From contig NZ_VOLO01000001.1 of the NCBI RefSeq assembly GCF_007954365.1, positions 1,240,001 to 1,304,000 on the forward strand: a DNA stretch of 64,000 nt. The letters run 5' to 3'. Made by a program: the position numbers and the translations under genes. Origin of the DNA: Frigoribacterium sp. ACAM 257. Its GTDB lineage: Bacteria > Actinomycetota > Actinomycetes > Actinomycetales > Microbacteriaceae. Positions 4,302 through 60,948 of this stretch are shown here, in pieces (position 1 is the first letter of the stretch; each line of letters opens with the position of its first letter). A model generated the notes under the pieces. The model ran no database searches. It worked only from the letters and a program-made list of their open reading frames with translations, and was not told where the DNA came from.

Positions 4302-5834
4302 GTGTCGACGACCACCACCCCTCCCGACCAGCCGACGGCCGCCTCCGGGGCCGCCCCCGACGGGGACGACAAGACCGAGCTCAAGCGGGTCATCGGCCCG
4401 AAGCTGCTGCTGCTGTTCATCGTCGGGGACATCCTCGGCACGGGCGTCTACGCCCTGACCGGCCAGGTCGCCGCCGAGGTCGGCGGGGCCGCCTGGCTGC
4501 CGTTCCTCATCGCGTTCGGCGTCGCGCTCGTGACCGCCTTCTCGTACCTCGAGCTCGTCACGAAGTACCCGCAGACCGCCGGCGCCGCCCTCTACGTGCA
4601 CAAGGCGTTCGGAGTGCACTTCGTGACGTTCCTCGTCTGCTTCGTCGTGATGTGCTCCGGCATCACCAGCGCCTCCACCGCCTCCCGGGCCTTCGCGGCG
4701 AACCTCGCGGTCGGCGTCGGGCTCGAGCTGCCGAACATCGCCGTGATGGGCATCGCGATGGGCTTCATGCTGCTCGTGATGCTCGTCAACTTCCGCGGCG
4801 TCAGCGAGAGCGTCAAGACGAACGTCGTGCTGACGCTGGTCGAGCTGTCCGGCCTCGTGATGGTCATCCTGATCGGCTTCTGGGCCATCGCGGGCGGGAA
4901 CGCCGACCTGTCGCGCGTCACGATCTTCGAGACGCCCGGCGACAAGTCGCTGCTGCTCAGCGTGAGCACCGCGACTTCGCTCGCCTTCTTCGCGATGGTC
5001 GGCTTCGAGGACAGCGTCAACATGGCCGAGGAGACCAAGGACCCGAGCCGCATCTTCCCCCGCACCATGCTCACGGGGCTCGGCATCACCGCCGTCGTCT
5101 ACGTGCTCGTCTCGATCTGCGCCGTCGCCGTGGTGCCCATCGGCGAGCTCGCCGACAACGAGACGCCGCTCGTCACGGTCGTGAACACGGCGGCCCCCGG
5201 GTTCCCGATCGGGCAGCTGCTGCCGTTCATCTCGATGTTCGCCGTCGCCAACAGCGCGCTGATCAACATGATGATGGCGAGCCGCCTGCTCTACGGCATG
5301 AGCAAGCAGGGCGTGCTGCCCGGGTTCCTGTCGAAGGTGCACCGCACCCGCCAGACCCCGTGGGCGTCGATCGTCTTCACCACCGCACTGTCGCTGCTGC
5401 TGATCGGGTACGTGTCGCTCAGCCCGGAGTCGCCCGTCGTCGCCGTGCTCGGCGGCACGACGTCGCTGCTGTTGCTCGTCGTGTTCGCGATCGTCAACGT
5501 GACGGTGCTCGTGCTGCGCCGTGACGACGTGGGCAGACACCACTTCCGGGCCGGGCGCGTGCTGCCCGTCGTGGGCGTCGTCGCGTGCCTCTGGCTGGTG
5601 CTGCCGTTCTCGTCCGGTCGCGGCGGCGAGCAGTACCAGATCGCGGGCATCCTGCTGGCGATCGGGGTCGTGCTGTGGGCCGTCACGATGATCTCGCGGC
5701 GCGGGCGCGGTGGCAGCAGCAGCAGCGACAGCGACAGCGACAGCGACAGCGACAGCGGCAGCGGAGCCGAGGAGGCGCGGGTCACGTCGACGGACGACGC
5801 GGGCGACCCCGAGGCGGTGCCGCCCGCCCGCTGA
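4302..5834 (+). CDS. APC-superfamily amino acid permease
   Basis: A 510-residue membrane protein with about 12 hydrophobic helices and the APC hallmark region GDILGTGVYALTGQVA in the first helix. It would import amino acids or amines by proton coupling. GTG 4302 is chosen because AGGAGG (4291-4296) lies 5 bases upstream and the protein from there matches family length; the longer frame adds a poorly structured stretch. The cytoplasmic C-terminus is unusual: a run of Ser and Asp-Ser pairs (about residues 470-486, encoded by an AGCGAC repeat) followed by an acidic tail. The tail also contains one exact copy of the repeated 12-mer. Substrate cannot be told; no catabolic gene is adjacent. Confidence 0.85.
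   Translation: MSTTTTPPDQPTAASGAAPDGDDKTELKRVIGPKLLLLFIVGDILGTGVYALTGQVAAEVGGAAWLPFLIAFGVALVTAFSYLELVTKYPQTAGAALYVHKAFGVHFVTFLVCFVVMCSGITSASTASRAFAANLAVGVGLELPNIAVMGIAMGFMLLVMLVNFRGVSESVKTNVVLTLVELSGLVMVILIGFWAIAGGNADLSRVTIFETPGDKSLLLSVSTATSLAFFAMVGFEDSVNMAEETKDPSRIFPRTMLTGLGITAVVYVLVSICAVAVVPIGELADNETPLVTVVNTAAPGFPIGQLLPFISMFAVANSALINMMMASRLLYGMSKQGVLPGFLSKVHRTRQTPWASIVFTTALSLLLIGYVSLSPESPVVAVLGGTTSLLLLVVFAIVNVTVLVLRRDDVGRHHFRAGRVLPVVGVVACLWLVLPFSSGRGGEQYQIAGILLAIGVVLWAVTMISRRGRGGSSSSDSDSDSDSDSGSGAEEARVTSTDDAGDPEAVPPAR
5724..5757 (+). repeat. AGCGAC hexanucleotide repeat in permease tail
   Basis: About five to six units of AGCGAC encode alternating Ser-Asp. As the unit is 6 bases, length change would keep the frame, so the tail may vary between strains. 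Confidence 0.8.
5770..5781 (-). repeat. Repeated 12-mer CCCGCGCCTCCT, copy 1
   Basis: Exact copy on the minus strand, inside the disordered C-terminal tail of the APC permease (reads Glu-Glu-Ala-Arg-Val). It extends to the 13-mer with flanking A. Confidence 0.8.
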
Positions 5835-5843
5835 CGCGGCCGG

Positions 5844-60157: not shown

Positions 60158-60948
60158 CCGACGCGACCGCCACCTCGACGCCCGAGGGCGAGGTCGAGCC
60201 CGAGGTCGTGGCTCCCGACGCCGACGCTCTCGCCGCCCCCGGCACGCTCCCCCTCGCCGGCCGTCGCGCGCTCGTCACCCTGCTGACCCACCGCTTCGTC
60301 TCGCGGGCGAGGCAGAAGGAGGCGTGGGCCGGCCTCCTGGCGCACGAGGCCGACATCCGCGCCCGCCTGTCCGAGCTGTTCCTCGACCTCGAGGTCGACC
60401 ACGGGCACGAGGTGGCGTTCAAGCGGCAGTCGGGCGGCGACGACGCCCCCGTGCTGCTGCGCCGCGAGAAGCCGCTGTCGCGCGACGCGTCGTTCCTGCT
60501 CGTGTTCCTGCGGCGCGAGCACGCCTACACCGACGGCGACGACGAGGCCGTCGTCGTCTCGCGCGACCAGGTCGCCGAGTTCCTCGGCCGGTTCCACGAC
60601 GACACGGGGCGCGACGAGGTGCGGGCCGACCGCCGCGTCGAGGCCGCGATCGCCGCGATGGTCTCCCGCGACCTGCTCGAGCCCGAGCCCGACGACCCGC
60701 AGCTCTTCACGGTCTCGCCCGCGATCGTCCCCCTGGTCAGGCCCGAGCAGCTGGCGCACCTCGAGCAGGTCTACCTCGACGCCGCAGGAGGCGCGGGTCC
60801 CGACGTCGAGGTCGGTCCGGACCTCGACGAGGTCGAGCCGGACCAGGACGAGGAAGACGCCCAGCACCTCCCCGACCCCACGGCGGTCGCGCTCGACCTC
60901 GACCTCCCGCTCGACCTCCCCCGCGACACGGAAGCAGACCAGGCATGA
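60154..60948 (+). CDS. jetB: Wadjet protein JetB (DUF4194, MksE-like)
   Basis: 264 residues of the DUF4194/MksE family, which bridges kleisin and SMC subunits. The winged-helix core (about 35-205) includes RRALVTLLTHRFVSRARQKEAW and AFKRQ, SFLLVFLRRE and VEAAIAAMVSRDLLEP. Both ends are Asp/Glu-rich and disordered; the C-terminal tail (about 210-264) carries an exact copy of the repeated 13-mer (60786-60798) reading Ala-Gly-Gly-Ala-Gly. Start and stop both overlap neighbours by four bases (ATGA), so the operon is tightly coupled. Confidence 0.92.
   Translation: MTDATATSTPEGEVEPEVVAPDADALAAPGTLPLAGRRALVTLLTHRFVSRARQKEAWAGLLAHEADIRARLSELFLDLEVDHGHEVAFKRQSGGDDAPVLLRREKPLSRDASFLLVFLRREHAYTDGDDEAVVVSRDQVAEFLGRFHDDTGRDEVRADRRVEAAIAAMVSRDLLEPEPDDPQLFTVSPAIVPLVRPEQLAHLEQVYLDAAGGAGPDVEVGPDLDEVEPDQDEEDAQHLPDPTAVALDLDLPLDLPRDTEADQA
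60786..60797 (-). repeat. Repeated 12-mer CCCGCGCCTCCT, copy 10
   Basis: Exact copy (13-mer complete) in the acidic C-terminal tail of jetB. Confidence 0.85.

Follow-up and report, generated by a model that had tools for sequence, protein, structure and literature searches.

Why does one short word recur so often in a stretch of actinobacterial DNA, on both strands and both inside and between genes? The question is raised by the window analyzed here, a stretch of 64,000 nucleotides from Frigoribacterium (Microbacteriaceae), which holds 11 exact copies of the 12-mer CCCGCGCCTCCT; 100 dinucleotide shuffles gave a mean of 0.09 and a maximum of 1, and an earlier note on this DNA had expected about 0.1 from base composition. 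With up to one mismatch allowed, 33 sites are found against 2.73 expected. The earlier note had listed ten copies, five per strand; all ten positions are correct, but a copy on the minus strand, at 18355, was overlooked, and the total is thus five on the plus and six on the minus strand. Likewise, seven copies, and not six as counted before, extend to the 13-mer ACCCGCGCCTCCT, of which AGGAGGCGCGGGT is the reverse complement.

The word in the window and in the genome

Within the window, the 12-mer occurs in genes as well as in spacers. At 5770..5781 (minus strand; 13-mer with A) it appears as AGGAGGCGCGGG in the sense of gene 4302-5834 and is read as EEARV near the C-terminus (residue 490 of 510); at 15709..15720 (plus; 13-mer from 15708) it reads RAS at residue 236 of 239 of gene 15003-15722; the copy at 23670..23681 (plus) falls among the last codons of gene 23013-23690 (residue 220 of 225), and that at 41797..41808 (minus) near the C-terminus of gene 41732-42763 (residue 319 of 343), its core being kept in F. 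faeni. The core is also kept in F. faeni for 38565..38576 (plus; 13-mer from 38564), among the first codons of gene 38516-38872 (residue 17 of 118), and shows one mismatch there for 43132..43143 (minus), towards the N-terminus of gene 42770-46336 (residue 122 of 1188), a putative SNF2-type gene by the name given in the first reading. Further copies lie at residue 401 of 1076 of gene 16335-19565 (18355..18366, minus; 13-mer), residue 140 of 551 of gene 58502-60157 (58920..58931, plus; 13-mer from 58919) and residue 212 of 264 of gene 60154-60948 (60786..60797, minus; 13-mer). Two copies are found between divergent genes, at 22982..22993 (minus; 13-mer; genes 21552-22892 and 23013-23690) and at 38298..38309 (plus; genes 37972-38256 and 38516-38872).

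The core of the word, GGAGGCGCGG, also occurs elsewhere. On the plus strand it is found in genes 19562-20566 (20384..20393), 25362-26297 (26172..26181), 29388-30899 (30161..30170), 46824-47873 (47781..47790; kept in F. faeni), 50545-52320 (51774..51783; one mismatch in F. faeni) and 60945-63998 (63903..63912), and on the minus strand in genes 26303-27736 (27248..27257), 32376-34019 (33307..33316) and 34045-36183 (34722..34731). A minus-strand core at the extreme end of gene 46395-46790 (46776..46785; residue 128 of 131) is followed in tandem by another at 46799..46808, also minus, in the spacer of convergent genes, for which F. faeni has a gap and no aligned counterpart. The core at 3660..3669 (plus), without the full 12-mer, occupies the spacer before gene 3669-4175 and may also serve as its ribosome-binding site.

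The over-representation, as the earlier note claimed for the window, is confirmed and extends far beyond it: the source genome (G000) has 278 copies of CCCGCGCCTCCT (145 plus, 133 minus), and the genome-wide count for the reversed-pattern control is 2. In this genome there is one 12-mer per 12 kb and one core per 4 kb; in genome G035, where the 12-mer copies are mixed on both strands, there is one core per 2.4 kb. For closer counts we used three samples, with genes called by a custom script: 464 kb of the source genome (the window and 20 further stretches, all on contig C6; hereafter the own sample), the first 1.16 Mb of contig C1 of a relative (G128), and contig C1 of a Curtobacterium genome (G105). 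The own sample has 98 perfect cores against 17 for the reversed control, and the 30 single-mismatch words pooled have 311 against 312; for G128 the figures are 182 against 7, and 224 against 174. Perfect cores thus do not outnumber singly mismatched ones in either sample, and the mismatch words show no comparable excess; their counts are close to those of the reversed control. Other intergenic repeat families are present in this genome; a second abundant word, TCGAGGGCGGGT, represents a separate family of this kind.

Dialects, conservation and phage-like elements

The earlier note had proposed a count in related genomes. All 16 Frigoribacterium genomes analyzed are rich in CCCGCGCCTCCT (217-674 copies each; controls 1-9), and 117 genomes of other genera have 0-18 copies each. 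A second dialect, GG[AC]C[TG]GGAGGCNCG, was first noticed in named Curtobacterium loci, GGAGGCNCG being the part common to the Frigoribacterium and Curtobacterium dialects. The Curtobacterium (g32) dialect GGMCKGGAGGCNCG occurs in 66 of 66 genomes, 65 of which have 265-866 copies and one 41 (controls 0-10); GGACTGGAGGCNCG has 180 and 170 copies in the two g32 genomes and at most one in each other of the 120 genomes drawn. Copy totals per strand are near-equal in the genomes of both genera, and a flanking consensus reaches beyond the core. The orthologue of the putative SNF2-type gene 42770-46336 has the Curtobacterium dialect at about the same place, near residue 127, in 14 of 18 loci from Curtobacterium. 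Among the 85 genera drawn, the core GGAGGCGCGG is clearly above control in Frigoribacterium (g1) and Curtobacterium only, and less so in a third, g55 (399 against 142; in coding DNA, 35 against 10.8 in shuffles, maximum 17), where the excess is weaker and a search around the core found no flanking consensus. In a locus of Curtobacterium ammoniigenes (L076), GGAGGCNCG occurs 14 times against five reversed, and no flank could be read from these 14 sites.

Between species, the word is kept above the level of control words. At orthologous places, over nine pairs, the core was identical at 44 of 98 aligned sites, against 77 of 415 for controls; a Fisher test on five of these pairs (37/83 against 69/388), leaving out four with three to four aligned motif sites each (7/15 against 8/27), is indicative, since the pairs overlap. 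Over 146 pairs, also overlapping and hence indicative, 187 of 493 aligned sites were kept against 1427 of 6970 controls, with four of 22 Curtobacterium loci excluded as short or divergent. In alignments inspected by eye, new sites appear to stem mostly from substitutions at unchanged positions, and density is uneven in syntenic regions of two species (47 cores in 120 kb against 13 in 100 kb).

Phage-like elements were sought in Curtobacterium by capsid genes, which gave 17 places in 16 of the 66 genomes (the cut-off was exceeded by 14 genomes). Eleven of the 17 were examined as 20-kb stretches, with nine stretches, from nine of the ten genomes concerned, as controls. Overall, the 14-mer of the Curtobacterium dialect occurs 16 times in the 11 stretches and 28 times in the 180 kb of controls; according to the gene tables, all 16 copies (L218, L221-L224) lie among genes read as host. 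In the approximately 160 kb of the 11 capsid-bearing elements themselves the 14-mer is absent, with 0 copies both in the element parts of L218 and L221-L224 (40 kb; GGAGGCNCG six times) and in the six stretches L215, L216, L217, L219, L220 and L233 (120 kb, used whole without border mapping; GGAGGCNCG seven times); the controls have 61 copies of GGAGGCNCG. The elements are lower in G+C than the control stretches.

Placement and rival explanations

In spacers the word is 2-16 times denser than in coding DNA in Frigoribacterium and 9-75 times in G105; spacers between convergent genes are the densest in G128 and G105, and tandem spacers are denser in the own sample. The earlier claim that the word avoids functional protein parts is weakly supported: coding cores lie at most 60 nt from the end of a gene somewhat more often than expected (18 of 69 in the own sample, about 8 expected; 20 of 98 in G128, about 12 expected), and the remainder spread along the entire gene, in sense and antisense. 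Pairs within 50 bp are mostly in hairpin orientation (3 against 0 in the opposite orientation in the own sample, 11 against 4 in G128 and 20 against 0 in G105), and 18 of the 20 hairpin pairs of G105 have an arm offset of exactly 28 bp. Part of the copies thus form inverted pairs at gene ends, few of them in the own sample, where six of 98 copies are paired; other DNA of the source genome yielded one opposite-orientation pair in 100 kb, also present in genome G110, and a single pair of hairpin type in 60 kb.

A preference for certain codons, dipeptides or Shine-Dalgarno-like sequences in a GC-rich genome could in principle multiply such a word; AGGAGG matches the ribosome-binding motif, and the core at 3660-3669 precedes a start codon. 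Shuffles of the coding DNA of the three samples that kept amino acids and codons speak against this. The own sample has 21 coding 12-mers against a shuffle mean of 2.5 (maximum 8) and 69 coding cores against 14.5 (maximum 23), G128 has 98 cores against 10.4 (maximum 18), and G105 has 25 copies of its 14-mer against 2.1 (maximum 5), so that 21-98 observed copies face means of 2.1-14.5; the bare core shows a modest excess in the genes of G105 (16 against 7.2, maximum 14). The excess in genes, for which the earlier note had suggested this very comparison, is unexplained by a preference for certain codons or peptides, no such excess of the 12-mer is seen in the family's other genera, and an origin as Shine-Dalgarno sequence is contradicted by copies inside and antisense to genes; we regard this reading as practically dismissed. 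A role mainly as arm of a transcription terminator, with single copies as by-products, would fit the long hairpins behind genes and the dense convergent spacers of G128 and G105. However, most copies are unpaired: 92 of 98 in the own sample, 160 of 182 in G128 and, in G105, 59 of 99. Of these unpaired copies 69, 96 and 21, respectively, lie inside genes, where the counts exceed those of the synonymous shuffles, and one of 33 pairs has a TTTT at most 20 nt away from an arm, which makes this role very unlikely.

Equally improbable is a Chi-like recombination hotspot or a KOPS-like polar segregation site, for which hundreds of copies of a non-palindromic chromosomal word would otherwise be suitable. 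As the earlier note argued, no strand bias is seen: orientation relative to GC skew, a weak proxy for the direction of replication, gave 40:47, 72:55 and 39:39 in three genomes when stretches with a skew within 0.005 of zero were excluded. The near-equal strand totals and the inverted pairs at gene ends also count against such a site, and the word is long for Chi. A mobile miniature repeat that inserts itself would fit the many copies, the other intergenic repeat families of the source genome and the gaps between G035 and G110, which touch 10 of 39 aligned sites against 12 of 110 controls; the alignments nevertheless show the word arising mostly by substitution in place, without insertions of a uniform length, and no wider common sequence surrounds the Frigoribacterium copies, so that we give this idea scarcely any credence. 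The copies could also be bound by a chromosomal protein that is abundant in these genera (a nucleoid-associated protein, one that forms domains, or a DNA-repair factor) and so organize or mark the chromosome, phages being foreign and hence devoid of the word. Genus-wide occurrence, many copies on both strands, extended flanks and absence from the examined phage-like elements all agree with this, but by itself it does not predict inverted pairs at a fixed 28 bp at gene ends, respelling around a shared core between genera, or fast turnover with uneven density in syntenic regions; we consider it unlikely, if worth keeping in mind. Neither of the outcomes that the earlier note named as refuting it was observed: the genome-wide count is far above its control, and codon-preserving shuffles fall short of the coding copies. 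This supports its proposal that the word is selected or spread at the DNA level, as an uptake sequence or a protein-binding site, and of these two we consider the uptake sequence the likelier.

A putative uptake sequence and known systems

We think it probable, from this analysis of genomes, that AGGAGGCGCGGGT represents the Frigoribacterium dialect of a putative genus-specific DNA uptake sequence system of the DUS/USS type; we infer that these bacteria are capable of natural transformation, with a pilin as the receptor and with recognition of the word as DNA is taken up. The source genome has comEA-comEC and, in a pilus search covering this genome, a type IV pilus operon (contig C7, 399835-413529), a Flp/Tad-like locus and candidate pilin-like proteins. 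ComEC is present in 118 of 120 genomes of the family, and the import channel thus fails to explain the restriction of the word to these genera. Among the literature matches listed, in a search that excluded preprints and most subscription journals, there was no report of uptake or transformation and no uptake sequence for Frigoribacterium or Curtobacterium.

In the model that we propose, a competence DNA receptor, most likely a type IV minor pilin, would prefer the core GGAGGCNCG with genus-specific flanks; ComEA and ComEC would then import one strand, which would recombine with the chromosome. Fragments with good sites would be imported and recombined more often, so that chance point mutations towards the word would spread and persist, as in the drive model for USS and DUS. 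Such a model would account for copies on both strands, for spacers and gene ends as sites that tolerate the word, for turnover by substitution, for the absence from phage-like elements and for the altered spelling in a related genus. On balance, we lean towards the wider view that Frigoribacterium and Curtobacterium recognize self DNA through dialects, in a system that evolved independently of the Neisseriaceae and Pasteurellaceae and has a type IV minor pilin as receptor, and that a change of dialect forms a sexual barrier between the genera. Uptake tags for self-recognition exist in some Gram-negative bacteria, and we know of none from Gram-positive bacteria. If true, this would be a third case of uptake sequences, in monoderm Actinomycetota, showing sequence-specific uptake to be independent of an outer membrane, and a natural replicate for the question of why bacteria choose self DNA. 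Transformation would be directly testable in two plant-associated genera, and 16 and 66 species genomes with two dialects would allow one to trace how dialects originate and turn over.

Uptake sequences are described for the Pasteurellaceae and Neisseriaceae (PMC7811141). Micrococcus luteus is naturally transformable through Flp pili and ComEA/ComEC (PMC6370729, PMC4322843); the present actinobacterial genome resembles it in comEA-comEC and the Flp/Tad-like locus and differs in also having a type IV pilus operon, and the available part of that work names no uptake sequence for M. luteus (PMC6370729). Chi sites, contrasted with DUS in PMC3630211, are likewise short over-represented words, whereas the word here lacks strand bias, is longer and forms inverted pairs. 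The USS of the Pasteurellaceae shares with it a core with conserved flanks and two clade types with a common core part; USS sites originate by mutation and not by copying, which the alignments also favor for the present word. The USS differs in its AT-rich flanks, and in H. influenzae (Hin-type USS) perfect cores outnumber singly mismatched ones (PMC1626085), which is not so here; we take that relation to be customary for uptake sequences, not part of their definition. USS and DUS both reach a density of roughly one per kb (PMC1626085), higher than the densities here, and this and the mismatch counts speak against our reading. Compared with the meningococcal DUS, of which there are about 1900 in 2.2 Mb (PMC3630211), the core here is about 2-4 times rarer and the 12-mer about ten times rarer in the source genome. 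Unlike the DUS, the present word belongs to a Gram-positive actinobacterial host, has a different sequence, and its role in uptake and its receptor are predictions. Like the DUS of the Neisseriaceae, it is a highly over-represented word of 10-12 bp with genus dialects around a shared core, with hairpin-capable inverted pairs and with sites inside and outside genes (PMC3630211), and in both the density in mobile elements is atypical (PMC7371117).

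Abundance and dialects of the word

The 12-mer CCCGCGCCTCCT is present in 11 copies in the window, where 0.09 are expected; the earlier note had recognized the over-representation but, counting ten copies, overlooked the one at 18355. The genome-wide count that it proposed as a check gave 278 copies in the entire genome (G000; 3.33 Mb, 14 contigs), 145 on the forward and 133 on the reverse strand, as against two of the same word read backwards. The core of the word, GGAGGCGCGG, is unevenly spread along contig C6 of G000 (L031-L050 and the window): the initial 290 kb have 5-8 copies per 20 kb and the 64 kb of the window 23, as against 1-7, mostly 1-4, per 20 kb in between. 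The protein encoded by the window gene at 42770-46336 has its best named match in Frigoribacterium faeni (84% identity; records very near the window were possibly omitted), and named Frigoribacterium loci carry CCCGCGCCTCCT at 22.6 per 100 kb; the genome is accordingly assigned to Frigoribacterium, of the family Microbacteriaceae. Among 120 Microbacteriaceae genomes drawn, the three of the same genus, with 264-300 copies, were the sole outliers; the 117 from other genera had 0-18, the maximum being 18 (control, 7) in G055, of genus g55. All 16 Frigoribacterium genomes examined contain 217-674 copies (controls, 1-9).

The core occurs 842, 1378 and 936 times in three Frigoribacterium genomes (controls, 116, 148 and 106), and in genus g32 two genomes have 688 and 673 copies (controls, 107 and 118). 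A weaker excess in G055 (399 against 142 genome-wide) might be a relic, or else a third system; a flanking consensus was looked for at its sites (L175-L194) and none was found. In every other genome drawn with at least 50 copies, the excess over the control was at most about 3%, in a survey that detects only exact GGAGGCGCGG and to which dialects lacking that core are invisible.

An abundant relative of the 12-mer was first seen in named Curtobacterium loci, and the pattern derived from these, GGACTGGAGGCNCG, was then counted in the 120 family genomes: the two g32 genomes have 180 and 170 copies and each of the other 118 at most one. The genus g32 is taken as Curtobacterium in view of the density of the 14-mer in named Curtobacterium loci, 18.9 per 100 kb. 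The wider pattern GGMCKGGAGGCNCG is present in all 66 g32 genomes (controls, 0-10), with 265-866 copies in 65 of them and 41 in one (G134). Sequence logos read A-GGAGGCGCGG-[GT][TG]C in the Frigoribacterium genome G128, with weaker preferences a few bases beyond, and roughly GACGG[CA]CT-GGAGGCGCGG-[TG][GT]C in the Curtobacterium genome G105, with preferred positions further on. GGAGGCNCG is common to all patterns of both dialects and the flanks differ.

Excess within genes, placement and evolution of sites

Genes were called with a purpose-written script and shuffled synonymously within genes (100 runs). In our own sample (464 kb; the window and 20 stretches of C6), 21 coding 12-mers were observed against a mean of 2.5 (maximum 8), and 69 coding cores against 14.5 (maximum 23); in G128 (first 1.16 Mb of C1), 98 coding cores against 10.4 (maximum 18). 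In G105 (contig C1), the Curtobacterium 14-mer occurs 25 times in coding sequence against 2.1 (maximum 5), and the bare core only 16 times against 7.2 (maximum 14). Drawing codons by tripeptide context gave similar means. Both kinds of shuffle fall short of the observed counts, and codon usage is rejected as the origin of the word; the codon-preserving check suggested in the earlier note thus found codon preference insufficient. It is the perfect words that are over-represented, mismatched ones being hardly in excess: 98 perfect cores against 17 reversed in our sample, with all 30 single mismatches together at 311 against 312, and 182 against 7 in G128, with 224 against 174. One phase is almost empty of sense copies within genes (0 of 28 in our sample, 1 of 44 in G128).

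Per 10 kb, cores number 1.7 in coding sequence and 8.0, 5.5 and 3.4 in tandem, convergent and divergent spacers of our sample; the corresponding values are 2.7, 21.9, 42.9 and 6.4 in G128, and 0.45, 16.4, 33.8 and 4.2 in G105. Coding cores show a mild enrichment towards gene ends (18 of 69 in our sample, about 8 expected; 20 of 98 in G128, about 12 expected), and the claim that the word avoids functional protein parts therefore holds only weakly. In line with the absence of strand bias in the earlier note, no bias was seen relative to GC skew (40:47, 72:55 and 39:39 in our sample, G128 and G105; near-zero-skew stretches left out). Inverted pairs at most 50 bp apart, many of them shortly 3' of genes, are hairpin-oriented in 3, 11 and 20 cases and in the opposite orientation in 0, 4 and 0, respectively; elsewhere in G000, a stretch of 100 kb has a single opposite-orientation pair and one of 60 kb a single hairpin pair. 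In 18 of the 20 G105 hairpin pairs the arm starts lie exactly 28 bp apart. Of 33 pairs examined for a nearby TTTT, one has it within 20 nt. Unpaired copies form the majority in both Frigoribacterium samples and number 59 of 99 in G105.

When syntenic regions were compared in nine pairs, every letter of the core was retained at 44 of 98 aligned sites, against 77 of 415 for permuted control words (11 of 13 against 34 of 111 between G000 and G110, at 92% identity; 7 of 39 against 10 of 110 between G035 and G110). New sites appear to arise mostly via in-place substitutions, as judged by eye from the alignments, and core density differs between syntenic regions (13 in 100 kb of G000, 47 in 120 kb of G035). 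The 18 Curtobacterium loci around the orthologue of gene 42770-46336 hold 29 mapped site positions, of which 23 were each seen in a single locus and two in 14 and 15 loci; the site shared by 14 loci is at about residue 127 and so, by residue number, near the window copy at residue 122.

The genome has other repeats. A different intergenic family has TCGAGGGCGGGT or CCGAGGGCGGGT as its unit, repeated every 20 bp with forward units first and reverse units after them, and forms clusters of at most seven; it occurs at 8945-9016, 12835-12999, 23699-23770 and 38442-38453 of the window and also in L033, L036 and L196. A third repeat is about 100 bp long and has arms CTCATTCAGGAA, TCCTGATC and TTCCTGAATG; CTCATTCAGGAA has nine copies in our sample (window 38909; L031 783 and 16374; L034 16937; L035 9679; L037 2335 and 3525; L038 18544; L050 14014).

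Phage-like elements and competence genes

A search of the 66 Curtobacterium genomes for major-capsid genes (PF05065) located 17 places, in 16 genomes. Eleven 20-kb stretches around such genes were compared with 180 kb of control DNA, made up of nine stretches taken from nine of the ten genomes. The 14-mer occurs 16 times in the capsid stretches and 28 times in the controls; all 16 copies fall in five stretches, among genes read as host, outside the element. The DNA treated as element (six complete stretches plus the element portions of the remaining five, together about 160 kb) has no copy of the 14-mer, where 25 are expected at the control rate, and 13 copies of GGAGGCNCG against 61 in the controls. 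The lower G+C of the element stretches (0.63-0.71 against 0.68-0.74, whole stretches) may account for part of the depletion. In each of four Curtobacterium genomes, a small capsid-bearing element that also has a serine-recombinase-like gene (L221, L222, L223 and L224) adjoins a comM-like gene near the rpsP-trmD operon (names by reading); transformation might be affected by an element placed in a gene linked to competence.

ComEC was found in 118 of the 120 family genomes. The gene order leuS-comEA-comEC-rpsT (proteins identified by reading) is shared by G000, G035 and G110, where no stop codons interrupt ComEC, and ComEA of G000 has SLBB and helix-hairpin-helix domains. Contig C7 of G000 carries a type IV pilus operon with, by Pfam, two T2SSE ATPases, a PilC-type T2SSF protein, a prepilin peptidase, PilM, a major pilin plus another one bearing an N-methylation motif; a PilN-like protein and two further pilin-like ones, of 223 and 628 aa, gave no Pfam match and were named, as was a PilO-like protein, by order and N-terminal sequence. 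By reading, contig C6 has a Flp/Tad-like locus, which includes a third ATPase.

Likeness to known uptake sequences

By analogy with the DUS of Neisseriaceae and the USS of Pasteurellaceae, the word is probably a DNA uptake sequence that would work as these do. Several points count against this reading: ComEC is nearly ubiquitous in the family, hairpin pairs are few in G000, and the density of the word is lower than that of DUS and USS. That the word is the binding site of another chromosomal protein seems rather unlikely to us. For Frigoribacterium, Curtobacterium and the Microbacteriaceae, a literature search of partial coverage found no papers on uptake sequences. The sequence features compared agree with those of DUS and USS, with the exception that single mismatches are more numerous than perfect copies; an origin by point mutation is favoured by the alignments as judged by eye. 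DUS occur in many copies, some as inverted pairs, and in dialects that share a core (PMC3630211), USS have conserved flanks, two clade types and a mutational origin (PMC1626085), and mobile elements show an atypical density (PMC7371117); the word described here may share the mutational origin and is like these sequences in the other respects.
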